NCBI RefSeq assembly: GCF_003970675.1
Contig: NZ_CP034562.1
Location: forward strand, 1,612,001-1,676,000
Reading direction: 5' to 3'
DNA from: Flammeovirga pectinis
GTDB taxonomy: Bacteria; Bacteroidota; Bacteroidia; Cytophagales; Flammeovirgaceae
DNA length: 64,000 nt
In this document: piece by piece, positions 14,861-39,324 of the stretch
How the letters are laid out: each line of letters opens with the position of its first letter
Numbering within the stretch: position 1 is the stretch's first letter
Position numbers and translations under genes: made by a program
Notes under the pieces: generated by a model
The model's database searches: none
Seen by the model: only the letters and a program-made list of their open reading frames with translations
Told to the model about the DNA's origin: nothing

Positions 14861-16570
14861 ATGAAAATTCTTTTTCACACCATACAATTCATTCGTTCTA
14901 TCTTACCGAAAGACCAAAAGATAAAAGCGATGGGTGTAAGTGTATTGCTCTTTTTAAATTCTGGTTTTGAATTGATAGGGTTAAGTGCCATGCTACCTGT
15001 TTTTGCGGTATTATTGGAAGATAATATGGTAGAAAAGTACAGTTGGGCGGAATGGTTGTACACTACATTTCATTTAACAGATGATAAACAACTAATTATT
15101 CTTCTTACTTCCTTTCTGTTTTTAGTGGTACTAATTAAGAACATTGCAGGTTTGTTAATAACAAAATACCAAAGTGAGTTTGCGTTAGGATTGTACAGTG
15201 ATTTTGCAAAACGATTGCATCAAATCTATTATAGAAAAGGTTTTACTTTTTTTAAAGGTGAGAACTCAAATGTATTGAATAGAAATGTTAATACAGCAAC
15301 ATCTCTATTTGCAAACCAACAGTTATTAGGTGTCCTAAATATCCTCAATGAAATCATAATCTTATTTGCTATTGTAATAAGTATTGCTATCTACGATATT
15401 AAAATAATTGGTTTATTGGCAGTAGTTGTAACGCCAGTGTTTTTCTTTTTTTACAGGTGGGTGAGTGTTAAGTCATTAGAAATTGGAGCAGTTAGAAACC
15501 GAGTACAACCAAGGTTAGGGAAGAATATTTTTCAAAGTATTTTTGGGTACGTAGATGTGTTAATTTCTGGTTCTGAGAATAAATTTAGAGAAAGAATTAC
15601 AATAGATGTAGATGAATTATCCGATACAAACATCAAAGCGAATATTTATAATCTAGCACCAACAAGAGTAATTGAGACTTCATTAATGTTGGCTATTTTA
15701 GTGATGAACATTTATGGTGTTTACTACCTCGATTCAAGATTAGAATTGTTGCAATTATTAGGTGTTTTTGCTATTGCAGGGTTCCGAATAATGCCTTCTA
15801 TTAATAGAATGATGACCTACATGAATGCATTGAATCAAAACAAATGGACTTTTAACGTTCTCCAACCTTTAGCAAATGAACAAGTCTATGCTTGTAAACC
15901 ACAAAAAGAAGTTGTTTTTAAAGATAAACTAGAGCTTGAGAATGTTAGCTATGCTTATCCAGATACCCCAAGTGATTTTATTTTAGAAGATTTCTCTTTA
16001 GTCATTAAAAAAGGAGAAACATTAGGCTTAATCGGTGCTTCGGGCTCAGGAAAAACCACAATCATGAACATTCTCTTAGGTTTTTTACGCGTAACCAAAG
16101 GGAAATACAAAATTGATGCGCACGTTTTTGGAGAAGAATACGAAGATGATTTTTACCATAAGGTAGGGTATGTACAGCAATCGGTCTACATAATAGATGC
16201 GACTTTAGCAGAAAATGTTGCTTTTGGCTGTGATCAAGCAGAAATTGATTATACCAAGTTAGAACGAGTTTTAAAAAGAGCGAGTTTATGGGAAACGGCC
16301 AATAAACTTACAAATGGGGTAGATACAAGAATAGGAGAGAACGGTACAAAACTATCTGGTGGCCAAAGGCAGCGTGTAGGTATTGCAAGAGCCTTGTATT
16401 TTGATGCAGAAATTTTATTCTTTGATGAAGCGACTTCAGCTTTAGACAATGAAACGGAAAAGGAAATTACAGCATCGATTAATAAATTATCGCATACAGA
16501 TTTAACAATCATAATTATAGCACACCGTTTGAGTACATTGGAAGAATGTGATCGTATTATTGAATTGTAA
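14861..16570 (+). CDS. ABC exporter (ATPase fused to permease), PglK/MsbA-like
   Basis: In this 569-residue half-transporter an N-terminal transmembrane domain with about six helices (residues 20-320) is followed by an ATP-binding domain (about 350-569). Walker A is GASGSGKT (about 392), the signature LSGGQRQ (about 498) and Walker B EILFFDEATSALD (about 517), with the switch His in IIAHRLST. Relatives near glycan genes flip lipid-linked oligosaccharides (PglK) or lipid A (MsbA); the location beside a glycan cluster favours a glycan substrate. A weak promoter-like TAATTTCG lies at 14824-14831. The gene is followed by a long hairpin shared with the converging giant gene. Confidence 0.9.
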   Translation: MKILFHTIQFIRSILPKDQKIKAMGVSVLLFLNSGFELIGLSAMLPVFAVLLEDNMVEKYSWAEWLYTTFHLTDDKQLIILLTSFLFLVVLIKNIAGLLITKYQSEFALGLYSDFAKRLHQIYYRKGFTFFKGENSNVLNRNVNTATSLFANQQLLGVLNILNEIIILFAIVISIAIYDIKIIGLLAVVVTPVFFFFYRWVSVKSLEIGAVRNRVQPRLGKNIFQSIFGYVDVLISGSENKFRERITIDVDELSDTNIKANIYNLAPTRVIETSLMLAILVMNIYGVYYLDSRLELLQLLGVFAIAGFRIMPSINRMMTYMNALNQNKWTFNVLQPLANEQVYACKPQKEVVFKDKLELENVSYAYPDTPSDFILEDFSLVIKKGETLGLIGASGSGKTTIMNILLGFLRVTKGKYKIDAHVFGEEYEDDFYHKVGYVQQSVYIIDATLAENVAFGCDQAEIDYTKLERVLKRASLWETANKLTNGVDTRIGENGTKLSGGQRQRVGIARALYFDAEILFFDEATSALDNETEKEITASINKLSHTDLTIIIIAHRLSTLEECDRIIEL

Positions 16571-16689: not shown

Positions 16690-16698
16690 TGAAAATAA

Positions 16699-19600
16699 CT
16701 ACTTCTTAAACACCTTCATTGTCACTTCTCCATTATCCGTTTTTACCCAAACCAGATACATACCTATAGGTTTACCTTCAAGGTCAATAGACCATTTATA
16801 CAAAGAGGATGTATTGTAGATATCTGTGTAAATATTTCCAACTACATCATAAACTTTCACATCTTCTATACGAACAGCATTAGAAGTTTCTATTATAAAA
16901 TTGTTTGAGGTAGGGTTGGGGTATAATTTTATTTTACCTCCAATTTCTTTACCAATACTTGTTACATTTCCATCTACTGTAATACTATAAGATGTTAATA
17001 ATATATTGTCATATCGTTCATTAGAGATCGTATAATTGTATTCCCCTGTTTTATTCACCCTTAATGAGTCTTTATTTTCTCCAGAGATAATACTACCATT
17101 TCTATACCATTGGTAAAAGTCGTTGGTAGTACGGTCTTCTTCGGGAACGTCTAAATAATTGAAACCATTTGCTAATTCAACAGTTGTTCCTTCGTATCCA
17201 ATATTTTTCTGATTACCATATACGAAATTCACATCATCGTTCTTTACTTTAGGATCGAGTTTATCCATCTCAGCAAATGATAAATGATTATTTGAAATAT
17301 TGATATAAAGTAAACTATCTAAATTATCTATACCACCTGGTAATTCAACTAGGTTGTTGGCAGAGATATTGACATTATTTAATTCTGATAATGTACTAAA
17401 TGAAGCTGGTAACTCGTCAATATTTTTATTCCAAATATCTAGGGTAGTAATTCTTGCAGAAGCTCCATCTACTTTAATCCCTTCCCATGTGCCAACAGGT
17501 GAGGTAATAGGCCAATTTAATGTGTTATTTGGGTTTAGACTTGTACTTTGTAATGCCAAAAGTACTAGAGAATCCTGTTCGTTTGTCTTTTCAGGAGATA
17601 CATAAATAGATGCAGTAATTAATGTAAGATCAGTTATTGCAGGATTATTTATCTTGGTATGAAATTTTTCAAATTGATTATTAATAAGTAGAGAATCATT
17701 ATTAGAGTTAGGAATAGGAATTGTATCATTTCCAATAACATAAAACCATTGATAAGTATTTACATCTCGTAATGATGGATCAATAGTTTGATCAACTACA
17801 ATATGTATATACCCAGAAGTTGCTACATATTGAGGAGAACCTGCAATACCCTGATTTTTATAATATGAAATACTTTCTTCTTTAATAGGTTCTGGTAAAA
17901 GTAAAATATCATCAAATGTTAAGAAATTATTTCTAATCGCTAAACAATCTAAGTTAGACAGATTAGAAAATTTTTGTTCAACAGTGTTAATTTTATTCGC
18001 ATCTAAAATTAACCTTTCAAGAGATATTAATGAATAAATAGAGGTAGGAATAGTACTTAAATTGTTATTGTTTAATTCTAATATTAGCAGTTGACTTAAG
18101 TTTGAAATATCAGGTATGTTTGTAAACTCATTATTACCAATTTTCAGTGAGGTAAGCGCTGTTAATTCACCAAAGTTAGAAGGTAAAGTAGAAAGTGTTT
18201 TACTATCTAACGCTAGCTCATACACACGACCACCTCTTAGTGTAACACCGTGCCAAGTTGTAATTGGTTGGTCCAGATGCCAGCCTAATGTATTATTGAT
18301 GTTATCAGTATAAATTGTACTTACAATTATAGAATCATTATCAAAGAATTGTTGGTCATAAATAAAATTAGATGCGGAATACAATTCTAAGTATTGGAAA
18401 TCTTGATTAGAGACCTGGCAGTAATATTCTCCAACAGTTGAGGTTGTTAATGTTGAATCGGTTTCTGATGTTTGAGCAATACCATCTTTAAACCATAAAT
18501 AAGTATTCCTTGTATCTTGTAAACGAGCATCAATAGATAGTTTTATAGGAGAGCCTGTATAGCCCACAGATTGTTCAATACCAACAATTGCTTGTGGTGT
18601 GTAACTAATAAATTGTGCTGTTTGATTAATAATTGCTTCAGCATTGTATAAATCGTAAAAGACCAATGCATTATCGGAAATGTCAAATGTATCTAAAACC
18701 ATTAATGCTCCATTATCCATAAAGTTAACAGGGATGTTTGTTAAGCCTATTGATGATAAACGGGTAGCACTTACAGAAGTACCGGTACCACCTGATTGTG
18801 TAATATGTTCCCAATTTGAGACTGGAAGAGTAGTACTCCAGTTTAAGTTTACTTGAGGATTACTTGCTTTTAATGAAAGAAGAGCAAGGGAATCTGCGTA
18901 GAATTGAGTAGCATCTATCATGGTATATGTCCCTGTTTTTACTTGAGCTAAAGCAGGAAAGTTAGCATTAGTAATAATACAGTGATAGGAGCCATCTTGA
19001 GATATGTTTATGCTTCTGTTTGTTTCATTCGTTATTGCTCCATTTTCATTATACCATTGGTATTGATTGTTAGTCGCAGAGTCAGGAGCAGTTAAAGTGT
19101 AAGGGTATTGAGAAAGAAGAATAGAGGTGTCACTAGAAATATTATTTTGGGGAGCATAATTATTAGGAATTATACTAAGTCCTTCAAAAGCAGAGTATCC
19201 CAAGTTATTTAGTTGAATATAAATTGTTGTTAAATTTAAAGCTTTAATACTATTTGGAATATGATTGATTTCAGCAGTAGCGGGGGAGAACCAATAAAGA
19301 CTGGTTAAATTACCAATTGTTTCAGGTAAAACTTTAATAGGATTAGTATGGGTTATTAGTTTTTGCAATGCACTAAGATTTCCAATAGACTCAGGAATAA
19401 TAGCAATATTTTTTTCACTAATATCCAATTCTGTTATTCTGAAATTGGCTGTTGTGACTCCTTCCCAATTGTCAATTGTTTCATTGGTGTCCCAAGTTAA
19501 AGTTGTATTTGGGTTTTGTTGGAGAATATCAATTAGTACTAATGAATCAACTTCATCCATACTATTACTTGGTAGTATTGCTATTGTTTTTGAGGTAAGT

Positions 19601-22600
19601 GTTAATTGATCATAAACATTGTTTTTGAAGGTGTAATAATATTGTTCATGTTCTGTTGCTAAATAGGTAGAGTCTGTTTCATTAGGTATGATCGTATTAT
19701 TTTTGAACCATTCAAAGGTCATGTTTTGAATTCCATTATCAACGTTTGTGTCAATTGATAGTAATTGATCTCTATTAGAGAATATTTGTCTGCTATTCCC
19801 AATAGAATCTTGCGGACTATAGATGTAATGGTCAATCGTATTAGGTGTCAAGGTAATATCTTCAAACGAAAGTTTATTGTCATTAATGATTAATGTATCG
19901 ATATTTGTCCAATTTTGAATTCCATTAGGAAGTGCTTCAATAGTATTATTTTGCAGAGCTACTTTTTTTAAGTTGATTAACTGATTTACTTCATTTGGTA
20001 GACTACTTATTTCATTATTACTGAAATCGATTGTAGAAATCCGTGTGTTTCTACCAATATCCGACGGTATAGTATTTATGTTATTGTCTTTTAATAATAG
20101 AGAGTCAAGATATTCAAGTTGCCCGATATCCGAAGGTATATTTTCAATATTTTGATTTTCAATATTAATGGCAGTCACTCTTGAGAAATTAATAGAGATC
20201 CCTTCCCATGTGTTAATAGATTGAGTAAGATCCCATGTCAAAGTATTTGCATTATTTTCAGTGTAGAATTTAGCGACAACAGTTGAGTCAGCCGCAAGAA
20301 GATCTTGATTAAAGACAATATAGTTTTGCGATTGTAGCGTTAATTCTGTAAAAATAATATTATTGATTTTACAATAATACAATCCTGTTTGATTTGTGTT
20401 ATAAGATCGGTTGTTTGCATTAGAAATTGCTAAGTCGTTTAGATACCATTGATATGTATTATTTGTTGTATTAGGGTCGAAATCTGTTGGTAATTCTAGT
20501 GTTACAGTAGTATTACCGGTGGCATCCAAGTATTGTTCTGTTCCAATTTTTTCTTGCTCATCATACTTGAAATTGACAGGGTAGTTGGTAGAAATGTTTT
20601 CTAAGCTTTCGAAAGTCAATTGATTTTTCTGTACAAGTAATGTATCAAGAGCATTTAGGTTCACAATAGTACTAGGTAATGTATCTAAAAGACTATTATT
20701 TATTTTTACTTGATTAATTCTTCCGCTATAAAAAGAGATTCCCTCCCAAGTAGTAATAGGCTGGTTTAGGTCCCAACTAAGGGTGTTGTTTATATTTTTG
20801 GTATAAATGTCAGCAACGGCAGTAGAGTCAATTTCAAACTGCTGTTTGTTTAAAATAAATTGATTTGCGGATTGAAGTGTTAACTCAGGAAATAGAGTAT
20901 TAGTAATAAGACAATAAAATGTACCTAATTCATTAGTAGTATAAGTATTATTATTACCATTTGTAGTAATATGATTTCCATCTTTATACCACTGATAGCT
21001 GTTATTTGTAGAGTTTATTTCAGTAGGTAGTGTTAAAGTAATAGCATTTCCAGTATGTTCATAAATATTTGAAGTACCTACAACTTCTTGAGGAGCATAG
21101 TTAAAAGTAGAAGGGTATGCTTGAGTGATTTTCTCTAATTCTTCAAAAATAAGAGCATTATTATCTAGCTTCAAAATACTTAAAGCATCTAATACATTAA
21201 TGTCAGCAGGCAGTACATCAATATTTTTAGTAGAGATATTGACTTGTGTTACTCTATCTGTCGGATTTCCAGAATGTGTTATTCCTTCCCATGTATTAAT
21301 CGGTTGGCTTAAATCCCAATTTAAAGTATTATCTACATTCAGAGTAGAGATATTTGCTATAGCTGTAGAATCAGCAAGGAACGGAGCCGCATTAATTAGA
21401 GTATATGTTCCTGTTTGCACTTGTGCTAAAGCAGTGAAATCAGCATTCGTGATGATACAGTGATAAGTACCATCTTGAGATATGTTTATGCTTCTGTTTG
21501 TTTCATTTGTTATTGCTCCATTTTCGTTGTGCCATTGGTATTGATTGTTAATTGCAGAGTCAGGAGCAGTTAAAGTGTAAGGGTATTGAGAAAGAAGAAT
21601 AGAGGTATCACTAGAAATATTATTTTGAGGTGCATAATTATTAGGAATTCTACTAAGCCCTTCGAAAGCAGAATATCCTAAGTTATTTAATTGAATATAA
21701 ATGGAGGTTAAATTTAATGCTTTAATACTGTTAGGTATATGACTAATTTCTGCAATGGCAGGTGTTAATAAATAGAGGTTCGTTAAATTACCAATAGTTT
21801 CAGGAAGAATTTTAATAGGGTTAGTGTTAGTAATAAGTTTTTGCAATGCACTAAGATTTCCAATAGACTCAGGAATAATAGCAATATTTTTTTCACTAAT
21901 ATTTAATTCTGTTATTCTGAAATTGGCTGTTGTGACTCCTTCCCAATTGTCAATTGTTTCATTGGTGTCCCAAGTTAAAGTTGTATTTGGGTTTTGTTGA
22001 AGAATATCAATTAGTACTAATGAATCAACTTCATCGACGCTATTACCTGGTAGTATTGCTATTATTTTTGATGTAAGCGTTAGTTTATCATAAATAGTAT
22101 TTTTGAAGGTGTAATAGTATTGTTCATGTTCTGTTGCTAAATAGGTAGAGTCTGTTTCATTAGGTATGATCGTATTATTTTTGAACCATTCAAAGGTCAT
22201 GTTTTGAATTCCATTATCAACGTTTGTGTCAATTGATAGTAATTGATCTCTATTAGAGAATATTTGTCTGCTATTCCCAATAGAATCTTGCGGACTATAG
22301 ATGTAATGGTCAATCGTATTAGGTGTCAAGGTAATATCTTCAAAAGTAAGTTTATTGTCATTAATGATTAATGTATCGATATTTGTCCAATTTTGAATTC
22401 CATTAGGAAGTGCTTCAATAGTATTATTTTGCAGAGCTACTTTTTTTAAGTTGATCAACTGACTTACTTCATCGGGTAGACTACTTATTCCATTATTACT
22501 AAAATCGATTGTAGAAATCTGTGTGTTTCTACCAATATCCGAGGGTATAGTATTTATGTTGTTGTCTTTTAATAATAGAGAGTCAAGATATTCAAGTTGC

Positions 22601-25600
22601 CCGATATCTGAAGGTATATTTTCAATATTTTGATTTTCAATATTAATGGCAGTTACTCTTGAGAAATTAATAGAGATCCCTTCCCATGTGTTAATAGGTT
22701 GAGTTAGATCCCATGTCAAAGTATTTGCATTATTTTCAGTGTAGAATTTAGCGACAACAGTTGAGTCAGCCGCAAGAAGATCCTGATTAAAGACTATATA
22801 GTTTTGCGATTGTAGCGTTAATTCTGTAAAAATAATATTATTGATTTTACAATAATACAACCCTGTTTGATTTGTGTTATAAGATCGGCTGTTTGCATTA
22901 GGAATTACTAAGTCGTTTAGATACCATTGATAGGTATTATTTGTTGTATTAGGATCAAAATCTGTTGGTAATTCTAGTGTTACAGTAATATTACCGGTAG
23001 CATCGAGGTATTGTTCTGTTCCAATTTTTTCTTGCTTATCATACTTAAAATTGATAGGGTAGTTGGTAGAAATGTTTTCCAAGCTTTCAAACGTCAATTG
23101 ATTTTCCTGTACTAATAATGTATCAAGAGCATTTAGGTTCACAATAGTACTAGGTAATGTATCTAAAAGGCTGTTGTTTATTTTTACTTGATTAATTCTT
23201 CCGCTATAAAAAGAGATTCCTTCCCAAGTAGTAATAGGCTGGTTTAGGTCCCAACTAAGGGTGTTGTTTACATTTTTGGTATAAATGTCAGCAACGGCAG
23301 TAGAGTCAATTTCAAACTGCTGTTTGTTTAAAATAAATTGATTTGCGGATTGAAGTGTTAACTCAGGAAATAGAGTATTAGTAATAAGACAATAAAATGT
23401 ACCTAATTCATTAGTAGTATAAGTATTATTATTACCATTTGTAGTAATATGATTTCCATCTTTATACCACTGATAGCTGTTATTTGTAGAGTTTATTTCA
23501 GTAGGTAGTGTTAAAGTAATAGCATTTCCAGTATGTTCATAAATATTTGAAGTACCTACAACTTCTTGAGGAGCATAGTTAAAAGTAGAAGGGTATGCTT
23601 GAGTGATTTTCTCTAATTCTTCAAAAATAAGAGCATTATTATCTAAACTAAAACTACTTAAAGCATCTAAAACATTAATGTCAGTAGGCAGTGCATCAAT
23701 TGTTTTAGTAGAGATATTGACTTGTGTTACTCTGTCTGTCGGATTTCCAGAGTGTGTTATACCTTCCCAAGTATTAATGGGTTGGTTTAAATCCCAATTT
23801 AAAGTATTATCTACATTCAAAGTATAGATATTTGCTATAGCTGTAGAATCAGCAAGGAACGGAGCCGCATTAATTAGAGTATATGTTCCTGTTTGCACTT
23901 GTGCTAAAGCAGTGAAATCAGCATTCGTGATGATACAGTGATAAGTACCATCTTGAGATATGTTTATGCTTCTATTTGTTTCATTCGTTATTGCTCCATT
24001 TTCATTATACCATTGGTATTGATTGTTAGTCGCAGAGTCTGGAGCATTTAAAGTGTAAGGGTATTGAGAAAGTAGAATAGAGGTGTCACTTGAAATATTA
24101 TTTTGAGGTGCATAATTATTAGGAATTCTACTAAGCCCTTCGAAAGCAGAATATCCTAAGTTATTTAATTGAATATAAATGGAGGTTAAATTTAATGCTT
24201 TAATACTGTTAGGTATATGACTAATTTCTGCAATGGCAGGTGTTAATAAATAGAGGTTCGTTAAATTACCAATAGTTTCAGGAAGAATTTTAATAGGGTT
24301 AGTGTTAGTAATAAGTTTTTGCAATGCACTAAGATTTCCAATAGACTCAGGAATAATAGCAATATTTTTTTCACTAATATTTAATTCTGTTATTCTGAAA
24401 TTGGCTGTTGTGACTCCTTCCCAATTGTCAATTGTTTCATTGGTGTCCCAAGTTAAAGTTGTATTTGGGTTTTGTTGAAGAATATCAATTAGTACTAATG
24501 AATCAACTTCATCGACGCTATTACCTGGTAGTATTGCTATTATTTTTGATGTAAGCGTTAGTTTATCATAAATAGTATTTTTGAAGGTGTAATAGTATTG
24601 TTCATGTTCTGTTGCTAAATAGGTAGAGTCTGTTTCATTAGGTATGATCGTATTATTTTTGAACCATTCAAAGGTCATGTTTTGAATTCCATTATCAACG
24701 TTTGTGTCAATTGATAGTAATTGATCTCTATTAGAGAATATTTGTCTGCTATTCCCAATAGAATCTTGCGGACTATAGATGTAATGGTCAATCGTATTAG
24801 GTGTCAAGGTAATATCTTCAAAAGTAAGTTTATTGTCATTAATGATTAATGTATCGATATTTGTCCAATTTTGAATTCCATTAGGAAGTGCTTCAATAGT
24901 ATTATTTTGCAGAGCTACTTTTTTTAAGTTGATCAACTGACTTACTTCATCGGGTAGACTACTTATTCCATTATTACTAAAATCGATTGTAGAAATCTGT
25001 GTGTTTCTACCAATATCCGAGGGTATAGTATTTATGTTGTTGTCTTTTAATAATAGAGAGTCAAGATATTCAAGTTGCCCGATATCTGAAGGTATATTTT
25101 CAATATTTTGATTTTCAATATTAATGGCAGTTACTCTTGAGAAATTAATAGAGATCCCTTCCCATGTGTTAATAGGTTGAGTTAGATCCCATGTCAAAGT
25201 ATTTGCATTATTTTCAGTGTAGAATTTAGCGACAACAGTTGAGTCAGCCGCAAGAAGATCCTGATTAAAGACTATATAGTTTTGCGATTGTAGCGTTAAT
25301 TCTGTAAAAATAATATTATTGATTTTACAATAATACAACCCTGTTTGATTTGTGTTATAAGATCGGCTGTTTGCATTAGGAATTACTAAGTCGTTTAGAT
25401 ACCATTGATAGGTATTATTTGTTGTATTAGGATCAAAATCTGTTGGTAATTCTAGTGTTACAGTAATATTACCGGTAGCATCGAGGTATTGTTCTGTTCC
25501 AATTTTTTCTTGCTTATCATACTTAAAATTGATAGGGTAGTTGGTAGAAATGTTTTCCAAGCTTTCAAACGTCAATTGATTTTCCTGTACTAATAATGTA

Positions 25601-27057
25601 TCAAGAGCATTTAGGTTCACAATAGTACTAGGTAATGTATCTAAAAGGCTGTTGTTTATTTTTACTTGATTAATTCTTCCGCTATAAAAAGAGATTCCTT
25701 CCCAAGTAGTAATAGGCTGGTTTAGGTCCCAACTAAGGGTGTTGTTTACATTTTTGGTATAAATGTCAGCAACGGCAGTAGAGTCAATTTCAAACTGCTG
25801 TTTGTTTAAAATAAATTGATTTGCGGATTGAAGTGTTAACTCAGGAAATAGAGTATTAGTAATAAGACAATAAAATGTACCTAATTCATTAGTAGTATAA
25901 GTATTATTATTACCATTTGTAGTAATATGATTTCCATCTTTATACCACTGATAGCTGTTATTTGTAGAGTTTATTTCAGTAGGTAGTGTTAAAGTAATAG
26001 CATTTCCAGTATGTTCATAAATATTTGAAGTACCTACAACTTCTTGAGGAGCATAGTTAAAAGTAGAAGGGTATGCTTGAGTGATTTTCTCTAATTCTTC
26101 AAAAATAAGAGCATTATTATCTAAACTAAAACTACTTAAAGCATCTAAAACATTAATGTCAGTAGGCAGTGCATCAATTGTTTTAGTAGAGATATTGACT
26201 TGTGTTACTCTGTCTGTCGGATTTCCAGAGTGTGTTATACCTTCCCATGTATTAATCGGTTGGCTTAAATCCCAATTTAAAGTATTATCTACATTCAAAG
26301 TATAGATATTTGCTATAGCTGTAGAATCAGCAAGGAACGGAGCCGCATTAATTAGAGTATATGTTCCTGTTTGCACTTGTGCTAAAGCAGTGAAATCAGC
26401 ATTCGTGATGATACAGTGATAAGTACCATCTTGAGATATGTTTATGCTTCTATTTGTTTCATTCGTTATTGCTCCATTTTCATTATACCATTGGTATTGA
26501 TTGTTAGTCGCAGAGTCTGGAGCATTTAAAGTGTAAGGGTATTGAGAAAGTAGAATAGAGGTGTCACTTGAAATATTATTTTGAGGTGCATAATTATTAG
26601 GAATTATACTAAGTCCTTCAAAAGCAGAGTATCCCAAGTTATTTAGTTGAATATAAATTGTTGTTAAATTTAAAGCTTTAATACTATTTGGAATATGATT
26701 GATTTCAGCAGTAGCGGGGGAGAACCAATAAAGACTGGTTAAATTACCAATTGTTTCAGGTAAAACTTTAATAGGATTAGTATGGGTTATTAGTTTTTGC
26801 AATGCACTAAGATTTCCAATAGACTCAGGAATAATAGCAATATTTTTCGAATTTATGTTAATACCTATGATTTTTGAGTTATTGATTTCAATTCCTTCCC
26901 AACTAGAAACATTATTATTTAGATTCCAAGTAAGTGTACTATTTGGATTGGTGTTATATATATCTACCAAAACTAAAGAATCATTTTCAATAACTTGAGC
27001 ATTTATTGAATTGATGAAAAATAGAAATGTAAATATAAAAGGTGCTATATTTGTCAT
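16699..27057 (-). CDS. Giant T9SS-secreted protein of 16 LRR/Ig-like modules
   Basis: The 3452-residue protein starts at ATG 27057 (the longer frame begins at a TTG inside the neighbour's start region) with signal peptide MTNIAPFIFTFLFFINSINA. Sixteen modules of about 215 residues follow. Each opens with a NTLTWDLxQPINTWEGI-like box, continues with leucine-rich-repeat strands (IPSDIGQLEYLDSLLLKDNN type) and ends with an Ig-like fold (YQWYKDG, then LGTFYCLITN). Modules are ordered A-B-C-D three times, then A and three diverged ones. The C-terminus (YPNPTSNNF to VFKK, about 75 residues) is a type A T9SS sorting domain, so the protein is probably exported and fixed to the cell surface. An adhesin or recognition role is inference. 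There is no enzyme motif. It lies between glycan export and synthesis genes. Confidence 0.9.
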   Translation of the reverse strand: MTNIAPFIFTFLFFINSINAQVIENDSLVLVDIYNTNPNSTLTWNLNNNVSSWEGIEINNSKIIGININSKNIAIIPESIGNLSALQKLITHTNPIKVLPETIGNLTSLYWFSPATAEINHIPNSIKALNLTTIYIQLNNLGYSAFEGLSIIPNNYAPQNNISSDTSILLSQYPYTLNAPDSATNNQYQWYNENGAITNETNRSINISQDGTYHCIITNADFTALAQVQTGTYTLINAAPFLADSTAIANIYTLNVDNTLNWDLSQPINTWEGITHSGNPTDRVTQVNISTKTIDALPTDINVLDALSSFSLDNNALIFEELEKITQAYPSTFNYAPQEVVGTSNIYEHTGNAITLTLPTEINSTNNSYQWYKDGNHITTNGNNNTYTTNELGTFYCLITNTLFPELTLQSANQFILNKQQFEIDSTAVADIYTKNVNNTLSWDLNQPITTWEGISFYSGRINQVKINNSLLDTLPSTIVNLNALDTLLVQENQLTFESLENISTNYPINFKYDKQEKIGTEQYLDATGNITVTLELPTDFDPNTTNNTYQWYLNDLVIPNANSRSYNTNQTGLYYCKINNIIFTELTLQSQNYIVFNQDLLAADSTVVAKFYTENNANTLTWDLTQPINTWEGISINFSRVTAINIENQNIENIPSDIGQLEYLDSLLLKDNNINTIPSDIGRNTQISTIDFSNNGISSLPDEVSQLINLKKVALQNNTIEALPNGIQNWTNIDTLIINDNKLTFEDITLTPNTIDHYIYSPQDSIGNSRQIFSNRDQLLSIDTNVDNGIQNMTFEWFKNNTIIPNETDSTYLATEHEQYYYTFKNTIYDKLTLTSKIIAILPGNSVDEVDSLVLIDILQQNPNTTLTWDTNETIDNWEGVTTANFRITELNISEKNIAIIPESIGNLSALQKLITNTNPIKILPETIGNLTNLYLLTPAIAEISHIPNSIKALNLTSIYIQLNNLGYSAFEGLSRIPNNYAPQNNISSDTSILLSQYPYTLNAPDSATNNQYQWYNENGAITNETNRSINISQDGTYHCIITNADFTALAQVQTGTYTLINAAPFLADSTAIANIYTLNVDNTLNWDLNQPINTWEGITHSGNPTDRVTQVNISTKTIDALPTDINVLDALSSFSLDNNALIFEELEKITQAYPSTFNYAPQEVVGTSNIYEHTGNAITLTLPTEINSTNNSYQWYKDGNHITTNGNNNTYTTNELGTFYCLITNTLFPELTLQSANQFILNKQQFEIDSTAVADIYTKNVNNTLSWDLNQPITTWEGISFYSGRINQVKINNSLLDTLPSTIVNLNALDTLLVQENQLTFESLENISTNYPINFKYDKQEKIGTEQYLDATGNITVTLELPTDFDPNTTNNTYQWYLNDLVIPNANSRSYNTNQTGLYYCKINNIIFTELTLQSQNYIVFNQDLLAADSTVVAKFYTENNANTLTWDLTQPINTWEGISINFSRVTAINIENQNIENIPSDIGQLEYLDSLLLKDNNINTIPSDIGRNTQISTIDFSNNGISSLPDEVSQLINLKKVALQNNTIEALPNGIQNWTNIDTLIINDNKLTFEDITLTPNTIDHYIYSPQDSIGNSRQIFSNRDQLLSIDTNVDNGIQNMTFEWFKNNTIIPNETDSTYLATEHEQYYYTFKNTIYDKLTLTSKIIAILPGNSVDEVDSLVLIDILQQNPNTTLTWDTNETIDNWEGVTTANFRITELNISEKNIAIIPESIGNLSALQKLITNTNPIKILPETIGNLTNLYLLTPAIAEISHIPNSIKALNLTSIYIQLNNLGYSAFEGLSRIPNNYAPQNNISSDTSILLSQYPYTLTAPDSAINNQYQWHNENGAITNETNRSINISQDGTYHCIITNADFTALAQVQTGTYTLINAAPFLADSTAIANISTLNVDNTLNWDLSQPINTWEGITHSGNPTDRVTQVNISTKNIDVLPADINVLDALSILKLDNNALIFEELEKITQAYPSTFNYAPQEVVGTSNIYEHTGNAITLTLPTEINSTNNSYQWYKDGNHITTNGNNNTYTTNELGTFYCLITNTLFPELTLQSANQFILNKQQFEIDSTAVADIYTKNINNTLSWDLNQPITTWEGISFYSGRINQVKINNSLLDTLPSTIVNLNALDTLLVQKNQLTFESLENISTNYPVNFKYDEQEKIGTEQYLDATGNTTVTLELPTDFDPNTTNNTYQWYLNDLAISNANNRSYNTNQTGLYYCKINNIIFTELTLQSQNYIVFNQDLLAADSTVVAKFYTENNANTLTWDLTQSINTWEGISINFSRVTAINIENQNIENIPSDIGQLEYLDSLLLKDNNINTIPSDIGRNTRISTIDFSNNEISSLPNEVNQLINLKKVALQNNTIEALPNGIQNWTNIDTLIINDNKLSFEDITLTPNTIDHYIYSPQDSIGNSRQIFSNRDQLLSIDTNVDNGIQNMTFEWFKNNTIIPNETDSTYLATEHEQYYYTFKNNVYDQLTLTSKTIAILPSNSMDEVDSLVLIDILQQNPNTTLTWDTNETIDNWEGVTTANFRITELDISEKNIAIIPESIGNLSALQKLITHTNPIKVLPETIGNLTSLYWFSPATAEINHIPNSIKALNLTTIYIQLNNLGYSAFEGLSIIPNNYAPQNNISSDTSILLSQYPYTLTAPDSATNNQYQWYNENGAITNETNRSINISQDGSYHCIITNANFPALAQVKTGTYTMIDATQFYADSLALLSLKASNPQVNLNWSTTLPVSNWEHITQSGGTGTSVSATRLSSIGLTNIPVNFMDNGALMVLDTFDISDNALVFYDLYNAEAIINQTAQFISYTPQAIVGIEQSVGYTGSPIKLSIDARLQDTRNTYLWFKDGIAQTSETDSTLTTSTVGEYYCQVSNQDFQYLELYSASNFIYDQQFFDNDSIIVSTIYTDNINNTLGWHLDQPITTWHGVTLRGGRVYELALDSKTLSTLPSNFGELTALTSLKIGNNEFTNIPDISNLSQLLILELNNNNLSTIPTSIYSLISLERLILDANKINTVEQKFSNLSNLDCLAIRNNFLTFDDILLLPEPIKEESISYYKNQGIAGSPQYVATSGYIHIVVDQTIDPSLRDVNTYQWFYVIGNDTIPIPNSNNDSLLINNQFEKFHTKINNPAITDLTLITASIYVSPEKTNEQDSLVLLALQSTSLNPNNTLNWPITSPVGTWEGIKVDGASARITTLDIWNKNIDELPASFSTLSELNNVNISANNLVELPGGIDNLDSLLYINISNNHLSFAEMDKLDPKVKNDDVNFVYGNQKNIGYEGTTVELANGFNYLDVPEEDRTTNDFYQWYRNGSIISGENKDSLRVNKTGEYNYTISNERYDNILLTSYSITVDGNVTSIGKEIGGKIKLYPNPTSNNFIIETSNAVRIEDVKVYDVVGNIYTDIYNTSSLYKWSIDLEGKPIGMYLVWVKTDNGEVTMKVFKK
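19455..21932 (-). repeat. 2478-bp tandem repeat in the giant gene, copy 3
   Basis: One full A-B-C-D module tetrad (826 codons). Phase is set by the NWEGV box of module A, which recurs at intervals of 2478 bp. This is the most diverged of the three copies, with scattered base changes, but it still aligns over its whole length. Confidence 0.85.
21933..24410 (-). repeat. 2478-bp tandem repeat in the giant gene, copy 2
   Basis: It is nearly identical to copy 1 over most of its length (for example 22082-23700 against 24560-26180 read the same wherever compared). Its B module start around 23760 differs slightly from both neighbours. Confidence 0.88.
24411..26888 (-). repeat. 2478-bp tandem repeat in the giant gene, copy 1
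   Basis: Closest to the protein N-terminus. Most of it matches copy 2, but the LRR part of its A module (26598-26845) matches the A module of the fourth, partial unit (19170-19417) rather than copies 2 and 3. Confidence 0.88.
27046..27053 (+). promoter_or_regulatory. Candidate -7 element of the glycan operon
   Basis: TATATTTG is a perfect TAnnTTTG match on the forward strand, 36 bp before the sulfotransferase ATG and inside the signal-peptide codons of the giant gene. No TTTG or TTTC was found at the expected -33 distance, so this is tentative. Confidence 0.4.
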
Positions 27058-27071: not shown

Positions 27072-27102
27072 CAAATGTAATTATTATTGATGCTGAATTC
27101 AA
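27072..27102 (-). promoter_or_regulatory. Candidate promoter of the giant gene
   Basis: On the reverse strand TTG (27100-27102) is followed after 20 bp by TACATTTG (27072-27079), a perfect -7 match. The transcript would begin about ten nucleotides before ATG 27057. The element spans the start codon of the divergent sulfotransferase gene. Confidence 0.5.
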
Positions 27103-28010
27103 GTGATCGAAAAATTATTCCTAACTTATTCATACCAGGTGCTCCAAAATCAGGGACTTCTAGTTTACATGAATATTTGAATCTTCACCCAATGATTCAA
27201 ATGTCCAAAATTAAAGAGCCGCATTTGTATGCTTTAGACGAACATTACAAAACAAGATTTAATTCAGATTCCGAAAGAGGATTTAGCAAGTTATTTGAAT
27301 ATAATGAAGATGTTAAATTTTTTGGTGAATCTAGTACTACATATTGTATAGATAAAAAGGTCTTAAAAAGAATTAAAGATGATATTGCGAATCCTAAATT
27401 TATTTTTATTTTTAGAGACCCTATCGAAAGAGCATTGAGTCATTATAATTGGTTGACGTCTTTAGGTATTGTCATTAATGAGTCTTTTTGGGAAGAATTT
27501 ATAACTTCAGAAAAAGATAATTTTGATGCAAATCAAAGAGAATTTGGGAGTGTTTATAAAACATACTACTGGTCAAGCAAGTACAAAAATATTATTGAAA
27601 ATTTTTTAGAGTATTTTGATGAAAAAAGTATCTTAATATTAACAACTGAAGAACTAAAAAATAATAAAATAGCCACATTAAATAAATGTTTTAAATTTTT
27701 AGGAGTTTCTAATTTGTATAATATTCCTGATTTTGAGACAAATAAAACAAAACCAATTAGAATTAGGAAGGAACCTTCCTTTTATAAAATAGTTAAAAAA
27801 TTTTTTAGCAATAATTTTAAAGATAAACTTAAAAAGAGATTAAATCTTAATAGTGTTATTGAAGAAAAGTTATCAATTGAAAAACCGAAGTATATAATAT
27901 CAGATGCTGAAAAAGAGCGTCTGATTCAAATTTTCAATGAAGATATGAATTATTTAAAAGATAATTTTAATGTAAAAACTTCAGATTGGAAAAACTTTAA
28001 AATGAATTAA
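27090..28010 (+). CDS. Sulfotransferase family protein
   Basis: This 306-residue enzyme transfers sulfate from PAPS to an acceptor, here probably a glycan. The 5'-phosphosulfate loop GAPKSGTSSLHEYL (about residues 17-30) and the 3'-phosphate site FIFRDPIERALSHYNW (about 108-123) are both intact. The ATG at 27090 is preferred over the in-frame TTG at 27087. It is cytosolic with no signal peptide. It is the first gene of the long forward operon, only 32 bp from the start of the divergent giant gene. The sugar acceptor cannot be predicted, but the neighbours point to the surface polysaccharide. Confidence 0.88.
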   Translation: MLNSSDRKIIPNLFIPGAPKSGTSSLHEYLNLHPMIQMSKIKEPHLYALDEHYKTRFNSDSERGFSKLFEYNEDVKFFGESSTTYCIDKKVLKRIKDDIANPKFIFIFRDPIERALSHYNWLTSLGIVINESFWEEFITSEKDNFDANQREFGSVYKTYYWSSKYKNIIENFLEYFDEKSILILTTEELKNNKIATLNKCFKFLGVSNLYNIPDFETNKTKPIRIRKEPSFYKIVKKFFSNNFKDKLKKRLNLNSVIEEKLSIEKPKYIISDAEKERLIQIFNEDMNYLKDNFNVKTSDWKNFKMN

Positions 28011-28035
28011 GATATTATTTATCCGATTTTTTATT

Positions 28036-28461
28036 ATGAGACAATCAAACTTAGATAGCTGTAAAATAGTATCCTTACCCAAAATTCCAGATAGAAGAGG
28101 AAATCTATCATTTTTTGAAACTGATAATCAAATACCTTTTAAAATAGAAAGAACTTATTGGATATATGATGTTCCAGGAGGTGAAATTCGTGGAGGGCAT
28201 GCCTATAAAAAACAAAATGAATTTATAATAGCATTGTCAGGGAGTCTTGATGTTATTATAGAGGTTGCTCATACTATAAAAAAAATATCTTTAAATAGGT
28301 CATATGAAGGTTTATTTATACCAAGTGGGATTTGGCGCCATATGGAAAACTTTTCAACAAATAGTTTAGCGCTAGTTGTATCTGATACTGAATATGATGC
28401 AGAAGATTATATTAGAGATAAAAATATTTTTTACAATTTTTGTGATGAAAATGCAAAATAA
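28036..28461 (+). CDS. FdtA/WxcM-like cupin, variant active site
   Basis: This 141-residue single cupin domain is of the family of dTDP-4-keto-6-deoxyglucose 3,4-ketoisomerases. The family box is visible: YDVPGGEIRGGHAYKK (about 44-59) and LFIPSGIWRHMENFS (about 94-108), ending in YDAEDYIRD. Where the family, as I remember it, carries His-x-His in the active site, this copy has His55-Ala-Tyr57; the second copy directly downstream has the intact motif. It may therefore be a different isomerase or a non-catalytic partner. Its end overlaps the next gene by 17 bp. Confidence 0.75.
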   Translation: MRQSNLDSCKIVSLPKIPDRRGNLSFFETDNQIPFKIERTYWIYDVPGGEIRGGHAYKKQNEFIIALSGSLDVIIEVAHTIKKISLNRSYEGLFIPSGIWRHMENFSTNSLALVVSDTEYDAEDYIRDKNIFYNFCDENAK

Positions 28462-28870
28462 ATCAGTTTACGATTGTTCTCTCATAGAGCTTCCTAAGAT
28501 AGAAAATAGAGCTGGTAATATTACACCAATAAATAATAATATTGAAGTTCCATTTTCAGTACAGCGAGTTTTTTATCTTTATGACATTCCTGGAGGTGAA
28601 TCAAGAGGTGCTCATTCTCATAAAGAATGTCATCAGTTTTTAGTTGCTGCAAGCGGTGCATTTGAAGTACAATTAGATGATGGAAGAACTAAAAGAAATG
28701 TACTCTTGAATAGAGCAAATTATGGTTTACATATTCCACCTGGAATATGGGCTTCTGAGGTGAATTTTTCTTCTGGATCAATTTGTTTGGTTTTAGCAAG
28801 TCACAAATACGATGAAGATGACTATATAAGAGATTATAAATTATATTTAAATGAAAGAACAAATAAGTAA
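28445..28870 (+). CDS. fdtA: Sugar 3,4-ketoisomerase (FdtA/QdtA family)
   Basis: In this 141-residue cupin the boxes YDIPGGESRGAHSHKE (about 46-61, His57 and His59), GLHIPPGIWASEVNFS and YDEDDYIRDYKLYL match FdtA-type enzymes, which convert dTDP-4-keto-6-deoxyglucose to the 3-keto sugar ready for transamination. The open frame extends upstream to 28376, but the ATG at 28445 gives the family length and a 17-bp overlap with the preceding paralogue; ATG 28451 is also possible. Together with the aminotransferase and the beta-helix acyltransferase downstream it makes an Fdt-like set for an N-acylated 3-amino-3,6-dideoxyhexose. The final sugar (Fuc3N or Qui3N) cannot be told apart here. Confidence 0.85.
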   Translation: MKMQNKSVYDCSLIELPKIENRAGNITPINNNIEVPFSVQRVFYLYDIPGGESRGAHSHKECHQFLVAASGAFEVQLDDGRTKRNVLLNRANYGLHIPPGIWASEVNFSSGSICLVLASHKYDEDDYIRDYKLYLNERTNK

Positions 28871-29081
28871 TATCATTAATGAAATATGTGATGATAAAGG
28901 ATATGCTAAAGTTGATGTTGATCACCATGACTTTGAGCAATTAAAATTAAGAGAGGATATCGGTTTTGATAGCTTTGATTTAGCTACTCTTACTGTATTA
29001 ATAGAAGATGAATTTGATATTGATATATTTGAGGATGGTATTGTTAATACACTTGGTGAAATCGTGCAGAAGTTAAAATGA
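28851..29081 (+). CDS. Acyl carrier protein of the glycan cluster
   Basis: This 76-residue carrier has the phosphopantetheine attachment site at Ser41 in GFDSFDLATL. The overall helical pattern and acidic second helix (LIEDEFDIDIFED) fit a standalone ACP. It differs clearly from housekeeping AcpP wording (no DSLDTVEL), so it is a dedicated carrier. It overlaps the ketoisomerase gene by 20 bp and the adenylating enzyme by 4 bp, so the three are translationally coupled. It probably holds the acyl group destined for the amino sugar. Confidence 0.92.
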   Translation: MKEQISNIINEICDDKGYAKVDVDHHDFEQLKLREDIGFDSFDLATLTVLIEDEFDIDIFEDGIVNTLGEIVQKLK

Positions 29082-30256
29082 ATTTAATAATTTCTAAAGG
29101 TGAAAAATTATCTTTTGATAATTTACTTAACATAATAGAATGTCAAAAAGAATGTCAATCTATTATTGTTTTTAGCAGCAGTGTTGAATTTTACTCTAAA
29201 TTAATAGTTAATTTTATTAATGATATTAATACTATTATTGTAGATAATTCGACAATAATAAATGAACAAAATTTAGAAGTTAGAATATGTGAAAATATTT
29301 TTTATGGTCAAAAAAACATAAAAAATATTAAAGGTTTAGTTAAATCATCAGACTCAAGTATTGGTCTTTTTACTTCTGGAACAACAGGTAAACCTAAGCT
29401 TATTGAACATAAAGTCTCTAAATTTTTTCATGCTGTTAGAAAACAAAATTCTAGAAACGATGTTTGGGCTTTACTTTATAATCCTAGCCATGTAGCAGGA
29501 TTACAAGTTTTTTTTCAAGCCTACTTAAACGATATTCTATTAGTGGACTTATATAAGTCAAGCAAAGTGGAATTTATTAAAGCATCTCAAAATTATAATA
29601 TTACACATATTTCAGCTACACCAACATATTATAAATTACTTGCTCCTTATGATTTTTATTTAAAAAATATTAAACGATGTACTCTTGGAGGTGAAAAAAG
29701 TAATATGAACCTTGTGAATAACCTTAAAAAAGTTTTCCCTAATGCAAAAATAAATAATATTTATGCTTCAACTGAGGCTGGTTCTCTTTTTATTTCTAAA
29801 AATGATACATTTAAAATACTTGAAGAGGTAAAAAGTAAAGTAAAATTTATAAATAATGAAATTGTATTACATCATTCCATAATAGGAAACTTCAATAAAG
29901 AAGAATGGTTTTATACAGGTGATATTGTTGAGTTTACAAATAATAAAGAAACTGAATTTAAAATCGTTTCACGAAATAATGAAATAATAAACATTGGTGG
30001 GATTCGTGTTAATTTATTAGAAGTAGAAGAGAAAATTTTGAATTTTGACTTTGTTAAACAAACAAGGGTCTACAAAAAAGAAAATAGTGTGTTAGGGTAT
30101 ATTTTGTGTTGTGATCTTATTTTAAATCAAATTATTAAAAAAAGTGATATAAAAAAAATATTCAGAACAAAACTACTCGAGCAAGAAATTCCTATTAAAA
30201 TTAATATTGTAGAAGAAATTACTTTAACAAATAGTGGTAAAATTAAAAGAAACTAA
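29078..30256 (+). CDS. AMP-forming acyl ligase (adenylating enzyme) for the adjacent ACP
   Basis: This 392-residue member of the ANL superfamily is shorter than the usual 500-550. The core motifs are present: FTSGTTGKPK (A3, about 100-109), YASTEAGSLF (A5), WFYTGDIV (A7), NIGGIRVNLLEVEEKI (A8) and a final SGKIKRN with the catalytic Lys (A10). The shortening is in the N-terminal subdomain. It should activate a free carboxylic acid as acyl-AMP and load it on the carrier protein encoded directly upstream (4-bp overlap). The acid is unknown. The next gene starts 1 bp after its stop codon. Confidence 0.85.
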   Translation: MNLIISKGEKLSFDNLLNIIECQKECQSIIVFSSSVEFYSKLIVNFINDINTIIVDNSTIINEQNLEVRICENIFYGQKNIKNIKGLVKSSDSSIGLFTSGTTGKPKLIEHKVSKFFHAVRKQNSRNDVWALLYNPSHVAGLQVFFQAYLNDILLVDLYKSSKVEFIKASQNYNITHISATPTYYKLLAPYDFYLKNIKRCTLGGEKSNMNLVNNLKKVFPNAKINNIYASTEAGSLFISKNDTFKILEEVKSKVKFINNEIVLHHSIIGNFNKEEWFYTGDIVEFTNNKETEFKIVSRNNEIINIGGIRVNLLEVEEKILNFDFVKQTRVYKKENSVLGYILCCDLILNQIIKKSDIKKIFRTKLLEQEIPIKINIVEEITLTNSGKIKRN

Positions 30257-30257
30257 T

Positions 30258-30980
30258 ATGAATGTTTTAATTACTGGAGTTTCTAAAGGACTAGGACTTA
30301 ATATTGCAGAAAAATTATTAAGTGATGGATATAGTATTTATGGTATTAGTCGTACTAAATCCAAAGAAGTCGAAAAATTATTATTAGAATATCCCTCTAA
30401 TTTTCACTTTAAATCTTATGACTTAAGCGATGGTAAAAATATAAAGAATGAATTATTTGGACAATGGTTGAGAAAAATACCTTTAAATGCATTTATAAAT
30501 AATGCAGCTATGGCGTACGATGATATTATCACTAACCTAAATATTGATAAACTTGAATTTATGTACAAAGTTAATGTTTTTTCTCCTATGCTTATTACAA
30601 AATTTGTGTTAAGAAATATGCTTCTACATAAGAATATAAGTGGTTCAATAATTCATATTTCATCAATTAGTGCTCATACAGGTTATAAAGGCCTTTCAAT
30701 GTATGCTTCAACAAAGTCAGCACTTGAAGGGTTCTCTAAAAATACAGCTCGTGAATGGGGGGAGTTAGGGGTTAGATCAAATTGTATTGTATCTGGATTT
30801 ATGGATACTGAAATGAGTAGTACTCTGACAGATGACCAGAAAAATAGAATTTATAAAAGAACTTCTTTAAAAAAACCTGTTGATCCAAATTCTATTAGTA
30901 ATATGATAAGCTTTTTAATTAGTGATGAAGCCAAAAGCATTACAGGTCAAAATTTATTTATTGATTCAGGAACAATTTAA
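30258..30980 (+). CDS. Short-chain dehydrogenase/reductase (FabG-like)
   Basis: In this 240-residue enzyme the Rossmann start TGVSKGLG (about 6-13), NNAA, and the catalytic set Ser136 (HISSIS), Tyr149 and Lys153 (YASTK) are intact, and the end SITGQNLFIDSG resembles FabG. I start it at ATG 30258, one base after the ligase stop, because the frame upstream only adds residues overlapping the ligase. Beside an ACP and an acyl ligase it may reduce a 3-oxoacyl-ACP to the 3-hydroxyacyl form. Acting directly on the nucleotide sugar is the alternative. Confidence 0.85.
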   Translation: MNVLITGVSKGLGLNIAEKLLSDGYSIYGISRTKSKEVEKLLLEYPSNFHFKSYDLSDGKNIKNELFGQWLRKIPLNAFINNAAMAYDDIITNLNIDKLEFMYKVNVFSPMLITKFVLRNMLLHKNISGSIIHISSISAHTGYKGLSMYASTKSALEGFSKNTAREWGELGVRSNCIVSGFMDTEMSSTLTDDQKNRIYKRTSLKKPVDPNSISNMISFLISDEAKSITGQNLFIDSGTI

Positions 30981-30982
30981 AA

Positions 30983-31762
30983 ATGAAATTTAATAATAAA
31001 AATGTTACAATTCATAATGATGTTAAAATTGGGAGTAACGTTGAAATTGGAGATAATACAACAATATACCCAAATGTAATTATTGGAGATAATACTATCA
31101 TTGCTAATGATTGTGTAATAGGAGAACCTATCAATGATTATTATCGAAAAAGATTAGAATATGTTAACCCTCCTACTAAAATTGGATCAGATTCTTTAAT
31201 TCGATCACATACCATAATATACTGTAACTCCGAATTTGGAAATCATTTAACAACTGGTCATAGAGTGACAATTAGAGAAAAAACGATAATTGGGAATCAT
31301 TCAAGTGTCGGTTCTTATTGTGATATACAGGGTGATTGCGTTATTGGGAATTATTCTAGACTTCATAGTTATGTAAATGTTGGTCAAAAAGCCAAAATAG
31401 GATCATTTGTTTTTATCTACCCATATGTAACTATAACTAATGATTTAACTCCGCCTTCAAGACCATTGAAGGGGGTGTTTATAGGTGATTATACTCAAAT
31501 AGGTACTAACTCAACACTACTTTCAACTTCTAAAATAAATCAGAGTTGTCTAGTAGCTGCAGGAAGTATTGTTTTTGGAGAATATGAAAATGATAGTTTC
31601 ATTAGTGGAAATCCAGCTAAAAGAGTTGGGAAATTAAGTAAGATGCCATTTTTTAATGATAAAGGTAATAGAAATTATCCATGGCAAAAACATTTTTCTG
31701 AAGGGTTGCCTTGGGCTGAAATAGGTTTTGAAGATTGGAGTAAACTACAAAATGATGATTAA
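30983..31762 (+). CDS. Left-handed beta-helix acyltransferase
   Basis: This 259-residue protein is built of hexapeptide repeats through most of its length ([20 protein letters not shown] style, quoted partly), with an LpxA-like opening ([20 protein letters not shown]) and a C-terminal GNPAKRVGK motif. It likely N-acylates the amino sugar made by the neighbouring aminotransferase. LpxA and LpxD of this fold use acyl-ACP donors, and an ACP is encoded two genes upstream, so an ACP donor is more plausible here than acetyl-CoA. It overlaps the aminotransferase by 11 bp. Confidence 0.85.
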
Positions 31763-32852: not shown

Positions 32853-32893
32853 AAAGATATATATAATTTGGCTATTATTTTTAAAACGAACAA

Positions 32894-35779: not shown

Positions 35780-35780
35780 T

Positions 35781-37601: not shown

Positions 37602-37607
37602 TTTTGA

Positions 37608-38810: not shown

Positions 38811-39322
38811 GATTGATACTATCAGAATGATTTTGAAATTTAAATTACATCTTATTAATCAATATTTAACTTTAAAGTTTATTATATTATATCCAAATCT
38901 TAAAATAAGAAATTGTTTTATTGAAAAAGGAGTAAATATTATCGTAGAAGATGGAGCAGAACTAACAATTGTTGGTACTAGTTTAAAAAAAGATGTATAT
39001 ATCCATGTTTCTAAAGGAGGAAAAGCAGAAATTTATTGGCATAGGTTCGATAATAGTATCTAGGGAATATATTTCTATTGGTAAAGGGACTCATGTCGCA
39101 GAATATACTGTTATAAGAGATCAAGACCATTTAATTTCAGATTTGAATAAGTTTCATACTAAACCAATTATTATTAAAGAAAATGTTTGGATATGTAATA
39201 AAGTTTCAATTCTTAAAGGAACTACAATTAATAGTAATAGTATTTTAGGGGCACATGCTGTAGTAAATAAAGATATACCTGCAAATAGCTTAGCAGTAGG
39301 TATTCCTGTGGAAATTAAATAA
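38800..39322 (+). pseudogene. Hexapeptide-repeat acetyltransferase broken by a frameshift
   Basis: Two overlapping frames together make one beta-helix acetyltransferase of about 174 residues. The first frame (38800-39063) gives the N-terminus up to HVSKGGKAEI and then runs out of frame to a TAG stop; the second continues with GIGSIIVSREYISIGKGTHVAEYT (in parts), HTKPIIIKENVWI, GAHAVVNKDIP and a GIPVEIK end. The join needs a single extra base near 39031-39034 (around GAAATTTATT). It is either a real inactivating mutation, a sequencing error, or far less likely a programmed shift. If intact, it would O-acetylate the glycan. ATG 38827 is an alternative start. Confidence 0.8.
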
Positions 39323-39324
39323 GT

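Follow-up and report, generated by a model that had tools for sequence, protein, structure and literature searches.

A sixteen-module LRR-Ig T9SS cargo gene of Flammeovirga pectinis whose length and distal part probably change by recombination

We analysed a 64-kb stretch of the Flammeovirga pectinis genome (64,000 nucleotides of contig NZ_CP034562.1, hereafter the window), in which a single giant gene lies between a convergent ABC exporter gene and a divergent polysaccharide island. The original prediction had correctly placed this gene at 16699-27057, where one intact frame of 3452 residues is found, and had left its strand unstated. The frame lies on the minus strand, and the matching frame of 16699-27057 on the plus strand holds many stops. 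Translation could start at the ATG at 27057 (3452 aa) or at a TTG 45 nt upstream (3467 aa); from the ATG start, the N-terminus as read by eye opens with a hydrophobic stretch without preceding positive charge. The main features of the locus are:

14861..16570, plus strand: convergent ABC exporter, a conserved flank (best NCBIfam matches PglK and MsbA, both below cut-off)
16699..27057, minus strand: giant LRR-Ig T9SS cargo gene (intact frame, domain matches)
16711..16926, minus strand: T9SS type A C-terminal sorting domain (PF18962 and TIGR04183)
26995..27057, minus strand: signal-peptide-like N-terminus, residues 1-21 (hydrophobic, INAQ at its end; read by eye)
27087..43557, plus strand: divergent variable polysaccharide island (sulfotransferase, FdtA-like, aminotransferase-like and glycosyltransferase-like genes among others, by Pfam and NCBIfam)

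The families that the original prediction had named for an HMM search (LRR, Ig and T9SS CTD) were all recovered above Pfam cut-offs: LRR_14 (239.6 bits), LRR_8, Ig_2, PKD_3 and Por_Secre_tail exceeded their curated thresholds in the giant protein. Its predicted type A T9SS sorting domain scored above both curated cut-offs, with 36.5 bits for PF18962 (Por_Secre_tail; cut-off 27) and 36.4 bits for the NCBIfam model TIGR04183 (cut-off 23). Weak fragment matches to nucleoside-diphosphate kinase, class C beta-lactamase, ZapC and others fell below curated cut-offs and were dropped, and NCBIfam matches to LRR-bearing secreted effectors and a Leptospira protein, far below cut-off, were read as common LRRs. 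A 112-aa plus-strand ORF at 21125-21463 lies within the repeat on the opposite strand and was taken as spurious. A tRNA search across the 64-kb window found none.

The giant protein repeats one architecture sixteen times, an N-cap followed by an LRR stretch and an Ig-like domain, and each module starts with a D-S...W...W segment that usually contains WEG[I/V]. The sixteen modules proposed originally were borne out in two ways: patterns fitted to the protein's own sequence find the WEGI-type box and the Ig-core Trp motif 16 times each, and profiles made from the window modules likewise count 16 caps and 16 Ig-like domains. The proposed module size of about 215 residues is accurate as an average and fails as a true period, since the spacing of the WEGI boxes ranges from 180 to 256 residues, running 218-181-180-247 three times and then 218-186-256. 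The repeat unit of the array is instead a four-module block of 2478 bp (826 aa) that is present in three tandem copies, and the modules and units, with classes named after the module tree described below, are:

26341..26994, minus strand: module M1, type A (profiles, tree)
23863..26340, minus strand: tandem unit T1, composed of M2 (B2), M3 (B'), M4 (D') and M5 (A); 2478 bp, tree classes
21385..23862, minus strand: tandem unit T2, M6-M9 (99.39% identical to T1; tree)
18907..21384, minus strand: tandem unit T3, M10-M13 (94% identical to T1 and T2)
24517..25257, minus strand: module M4 (D'), predicted structure with N-cap helix and hairpin, five LRR strands and an Ig-like sandwich
18349..18906, minus strand: module M14, type B (groups with G001, G003, G004 and G005)
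17581..18348, minus strand: module M15, type D (sister to G006; tree and joint D+E tree)
16957..17580, minus strand: module M16, type E (sister to G006; most conserved module class)

At the DNA level the tandem units are alike far above chance (T1-T2 99.39%, T1-T3 94.39%, T2-T3 94.19%), and the dN/dS ratio between T1 and T3 is low, at about 0.14. The 15 differences between T1 and T2 over 2478 nucleotides are confined to the first 100 nucleotides (3) and to nucleotides 2200-2400 (12). Module M1 is identical to M13 at its nucleotides 150-400 and to M5 at nucleotides 400-654, and differs from both at many positions elsewhere; this patchwork of M13-like and M5-like stretches points to recombination within the giant gene. 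Seven of the 16 modules (M2, M3, M6, M7, M10, M11 and M14) are short, with 180-186 aa.

The combination of LRR and Ig-like folds in one module, for which the original prediction had suggested structure prediction as a check, was supported by an AlphaFold2 model of M4 (pLDDT 94.1, pTM 0.86), in which a helix at residues 2-14 and a hairpin open the solenoid and are followed by five LRR strands and an Ig-like sandwich (strands assigned by eye). An LRR solenoid is indicated both by LRR_14 and LRR_8 above cut-off and by the LRR strands of this model. The WEGI box had been proposed as a separate element of each module; the cap-only profile and the M4 model place it inside the LRR domain instead, where it looks like a plant-type N-terminal cap. 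Among the 11 chains matched by the cap-only profile up to E 10, eight were plant LRR receptor kinases, with whole-chain E-values of 7.3e-6 for TMK1 and 6.6e-4 for TMK3; both matches comprise two caps each, and the single caps (i-E 0.45-2.1) are not significant alone. Alignments of the whole-module profile run through the cap to TMK3, ERL2 and PEPR1. We liken this plant-type cap class to LRRNT_2, although the Pfam search of the giant protein returned no LRRNT family up to E 1.

Leucine-rich repeats in every module, as originally described, hold for the long modules (about four LRR strands in A and five in D' by the models) and are a generous description of the short ones, two of which show about two LRR strands each in a structure prediction of a four-module tetrad (strands read by eye). 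This tetrad model reached a pTM of 0.41 and does not fix how the modules pack, so that it shows neither a rod, as in Periscope Proteins, nor the long filament suggested originally. In the same model hardly any linker separates the last Ig strand from the following cap helix, which, with the reserve due to a pTM of 0.41, suggests a fairly stiff array. A Foldseek search with a single module returned, among the matches listed, plant SERK, BIR and PGIP structures, InlB (E 2.6e-6), InlJ (3.7e-5), InlA, InlH, Leptospira LRR proteins and Lingo-1. The TM-score by query length never exceeded 0.56 in the 50 matches listed, so none of those solved structures covers the whole module well.

A T9SS C-terminal domain takes its cargo through the outer membrane. 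The same genome encodes a PorU sortase (NF033707, 1117.6 bits, cut-off 420) and has at least 136 Por_Secre_tail matches at E <= 1e-3, the giant protein included, with 150 of 170 candidates scored; these matches together with that to PorU indicate that a T9SS route is available in this genome. Export by T9SS, as called originally, is accordingly backed by a sorting domain above curated cut-offs and by the PorU sortase gene. In P. gingivalis, the T9SS C-terminal domain is reported to be removable, with LPS put in its place (PMC8545088). By analogy with such T9SS biology, the C-terminal end would anchor the giant protein at the surface after export, and the N-terminal A module would lie farthest from the cell. 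We infer the surface location and this orientation, together with the elongated shape, the role in adhesion or recognition and the ligand considered below.

A homologue was found in all eight other Flammeovirga genomes searched (G001 to G008, F. aprica being G004). Counted with the cap and Ig profiles of the window, the homologue comprises 4 modules in G002, G006, G007 and G008 (995-1018 aa, stop to stop) and 8 in F. aprica, compared with 16 in the window. It is interrupted by contig ends in G001, G003 and G005, and its N-terminal fragment in G003 was left out. The A modules at two contig ends of G005 are 88% identical to each other over 164 residues, as expected if the repeat broke the assembly. 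The modules follow one of three orders: A-B-D-E in the homologues with 4 modules (that of G007 having its A by position only), A-(B2-B'-D'-A)-B-D-E in the one with 8 and A-(B2-B'-D'-A)x3-B-D-E in the array of 16. The array length probably changes by unequal recombination of the four-module unit, which is added 0, 1 or 3 times in arrays of 4, 8 and 16 modules.

Related arrays occur elsewhere in the genus. F. aprica carries two further genes, distinct from its main homologue, at 3822-8879 and 13799-18340 of locus L061, each with 6 caps, 7 Ig-like domains and a T9SS tail, which indicates that tandem LRR-Ig arrays recur in Flammeovirga. On contig 2 of the window's own genome (locus L021, 962-18651), three consecutive proteins of 1676-2083 aa have one match each to the window Ig-like profile, with LRRs and T9SS tails in the two that were scanned with Pfam. 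Outside Flammeovirga, a limited sample of nine larger loci had a maximum of two caps, and among 40 short loci 12 had a cap and an Ig-like domain and none had more than two caps. A class-wide profile search gave matches in 263 of 295 genomes, among those listed mostly to the LRR part alone; at most ten candidates were scored per genome, and the search thus gives no frequency of long arrays.

To relate the modules to each other, we used a midpoint-rooted maximum-likelihood tree of 54 modules, which did not include the 12 modules on F. aprica contig C398. All seven module classes were well separated, namely A (12 rows, support 100/99), B (9, 100/98), B2 (5, 99/96), B' (5, 100/100), D (9, 100/99), D' (4, 100/98) and E (9, 100/99). 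The first module of G007 (locus L050) sits on a long branch beside E (89/84), outside A. Within a species, copies of A group together (support 100/99 in the window and 100/100 in both F. aprica and G005), which points to concerted evolution.

Different parts of the locus place the window with different relatives. The window groups with G006 in the tree of the ABC gene (8 genomes, 100/100) and in the D+E tree (9 genomes, 100/98), and module B of the window (M14) groups with G001, G003, G004 and G005 (100/99). With constrained groupings that were chosen after seeing the 54-module tree, forcing M14 together with the second module of G006 was rejected (p-AU 0.000238), and the data likewise rejected the five-genome grouping of the window with G001, G003, G004 and G005, with p 0.00184 on D+E and p 0.000124 on ABC. 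The inserted modules M2-M4 have their nearest non-window rows in G001 and F. aprica, and G006 is without the insert. These analyses show the giant gene to be a chimera, in which the C-terminal modules follow the nearest relative (G006) and the B module and inserts represent another allele type. An old allele or paralogue that was lost differently across lineages would be an alternative to transfer.

Synonymous divergence along the gene, estimated roughly in 45-codon windows, was 0.27-0.66 for the G001/G005 pair in the last part (most of E plus the CTD); everywhere upstream of that part it exceeded 1.6 or was saturated. For G004/G005, dS was saturated or near 2 in A only, and for the window and G006 it rises distally, less sharply. 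In our reading, divergent alleles have replaced distal parts of the gene, with break-points that differ by species pair.

Protein identity falls in the same direction. Over 21 species pairs, mean amino-acid identity was 76.8% for ABC, 60.7% for E, 47.0% for D, 46.9% for B and 39.2% for A; these means exclude 7 of 28 pairs (all those with G003, for which the data contain no A module) and G007, whose ABC gene is outside the stretch used, and count the best-matching pair for species with several A copies. Within A modules, the LRR stretch averaged 30.9% identity, compared with 43.4% for the cap and 46.0% for the Ig-like domain, and in B and D, too, the LRR stretch was the least similar of the three parts. 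In E modules (cap 54.3, LRR 55.1, Ig 62.3), the LRR is no more variable than the cap. Across nine D modules, identity on the concave LRR face (0.254) did not differ significantly from that at other exposed positions (0.296; permutation p 0.24), and antibody-like LRR diversification in the form of concave-face hypervariability was thus unsupported in D modules. Synonymous and protein divergence rise together, which argues for replacement by recombination and does not require selection on binding.

The two flanks of the giant gene differ between genomes to different degrees. On the 3' side, the homologue adjoins the ABC exporter in 7 of 8 genomes, at 74-84% identity; in G007 the exporter was not found in the stretch examined. 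On the 5' side, one or two nearest genes were tested in seven genomes (G003 was left out), and in six of them at least one had a sugar-, sulfotransferase- or acyltransferase-type domain; the nearest 5' gene of G005 had no Pfam match. For the island itself (27087-43557), which has 17 plus-strand ORFs of 100 aa or more, 13 of these ORFs and the flanking gene 43513-44895 were compared with partial stretches from seven genomes. Among these 14 window genes, matches of at least 50% identity numbered two in G006 (one being the flanking gene, 90%) and two in G001 (one again the flanking gene), and none were found in the stretches of G002, G004, G005, G007 and G008. By tblastn, 33810-34832 has a G001 match in two pieces of 70 and 86%.

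A four-gene sugar cassette is 92-99% identical among G001 (L052), G004 (L047) and G008 (L051), compared with 74-89% for their ABC genes, which suggests recent transfer between species. In G001, this cassette is separated from the LRR gene by other genes. Joint inheritance of A module and neighbouring sugar genes was not seen in the one pair checked, G001/G008, in which the four sugar genes are 95-99% identical, yet the A modules are 42% identical. Within the window, the giant gene and the divergent sulfotransferase ORF have their (first) ATG codons only 32 bp apart (27058-27089); should both starts be correct, a promoter probably extends into coding sequence. A toxin-antitoxin-like pair of RES-domain and Xre/MbcA/ParS-type genes lies at 13633-14559, with G006 as the sole match among ten same-genus stretches. 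Tandem repeats of about 268-399 bp (89-92% matches) occupy 48214-49696, with GGACGTTTT...AAAACGTCC-type inverted motifs in their consensus, and the single ORF of at least 100 aa touching them is 47800-48285.

On balance, we favour the reading that the giant gene probably encodes a T9SS-exported, C-terminally anchored multivalent protein of adhesion or recognition, whose length and distal part change by recombination. Each module would be a small internalin-like unit, in which a plant-type N-cap and an Ig-like domain enclose about two to five LRR strands, and the array as a whole would be a long molecule for multivalent adhesion or recognition. On the anchor side, D and E would form a more conserved base, and the distal modules would diversify through exchange with other alleles. 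Binding would likely fall to the longer modules (A and D' and, by sequence, D), with the short B-type modules perhaps acting as spacers. Given the neighbouring polysaccharide island, the ligand is perhaps a polysaccharide. It is unlikely that the protein works as an allorecognition-like receptor, a mosaic, length-variable array locked to the polysaccharide locus in which the conserved base anchors and the distal modules choose neighbouring cells or glycans.

Several other explanations have to be weighed against this multivalent recombining adhesin. The diversity could be a by-product of location, exchanges of the 5' island dragging or cutting distal modules with no selection for binding. The variability of the island, the near-identity of four of its genes among G001, G004 and G008 (92-99%) and the peak of divergence at the 5' end of the giant gene agree with this idea, which we nevertheless consider improbable: in the one pair checked, G001 and G008, the A modules are only 42% alike despite sugar genes at 95-99%, and the break-points differ among species pairs. 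A role as phage receptor or shield, with protein and surface sugars changing to escape phages, would fit a surface-type protein with swapped distal parts that adjoins a variable surface-sugar locus, and strikes us as quite unlikely. It is more doubtful still that the distal modules serve kin or self recognition, with polysaccharide of their own cell or copies of the protein on sister cells as what they bind. The linked variable sugar locus, the multivalent array, the allele types and the within-species likeness of A modules could all be read in this way, against which A likeness did not track common sugar genes in the one pair checked, G001/G008. Finally, the count of 16 modules would be wrong if the near-identical T1 and T2 were an assembly duplication. 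T1 and T2 do differ at only 15 of 2478 positions, all in the first 100 and in 2200-2400, and homologues in draft genomes break within the giant gene; however, the assembly has just 3 contigs and the one that contains the window spans 5.2 Mb, T3 clearly differs from the other two copies, and F. aprica has a unit of this type as well, so that an artefact of this kind is very improbable.

The locus thus presents 16 LRR-Ig units in one bacterial gene, arrays of 4, 8 and 16 units across the genus and a distal part moved between lineages, and its evolution is of more interest than its size. If the protein is a true adhesin or recognition molecule, the genus would offer a natural series of lengths and chimeras in which reach, valency and distal identity can be set against specificity. 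Its adjacency to a sugar locus makes a pairing of protein and polysaccharide directly testable.

Internalins join an N-cap, LRRs and an Ig-like domain in one unit, and LRR-Ig fusions act in recognition or adhesion in animals and Listeria. The modules of the giant protein resemble InlA, InlB, InlH and InlJ in this N-cap, LRR and Ig-like unit, whereas the giant protein repeats the unit 16 times and carries a plant-type cap in each. With no internalin family in Pfam or NCBIfam matching it up to E 1, the giant protein is not an internalin by model, but it may work in an internalin-like manner. The plant LRR receptors TMK1, TMK3 and SERK, and PGIP, share its N-cap type and a similar cap-LRR fold; in contrast to them, the giant protein is without a kinase, has an Ig-like domain appended and ends in a T9SS sorting domain. 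An InlJ homologue of Porphyromonas gingivalis is reported to be a T9SS substrate that mediates Candida binding (PMC5915736).

As two papers describe them, Periscope Proteins contain near-identical tandem folded domains whose number varies by genome, probably through recombination, and a C-terminal anchor (PMC8201768, PMC9704523). The giant protein is Periscope-like, within that description, in its near-identical tandem domains (T1-T2 99.39%), its variation in number between genomes and its predicted C-terminal anchor. As described there, Periscope Proteins project a separate N-terminal binding domain, whereas the giant protein is without one, M1 starting at residue 22, and its repeated modules are themselves LRR units. 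The variation in its module number was seen between species (4, 8, 16), the level compared here; in Periscope Proteins, repeat number varies between strains. Flavobacterium psychrophilum is reported to carry tandem LRR genes that vary in number by isolate (PMC8400371), and is a further case of Bacteroidota LRR proteins in tandem. Its repeats are consecutive genes, whereas those of the giant gene are modules in one frame that alternate with Ig-like domains. By title, none of the matches listed in a search of the open-licence literature concerned the giant gene or T9SS proteins with tandem LRR-Ig modules. LRR-Ig T9SS cargo and Periscope-like arrays are known kinds, and the giant gene is a variation on both.
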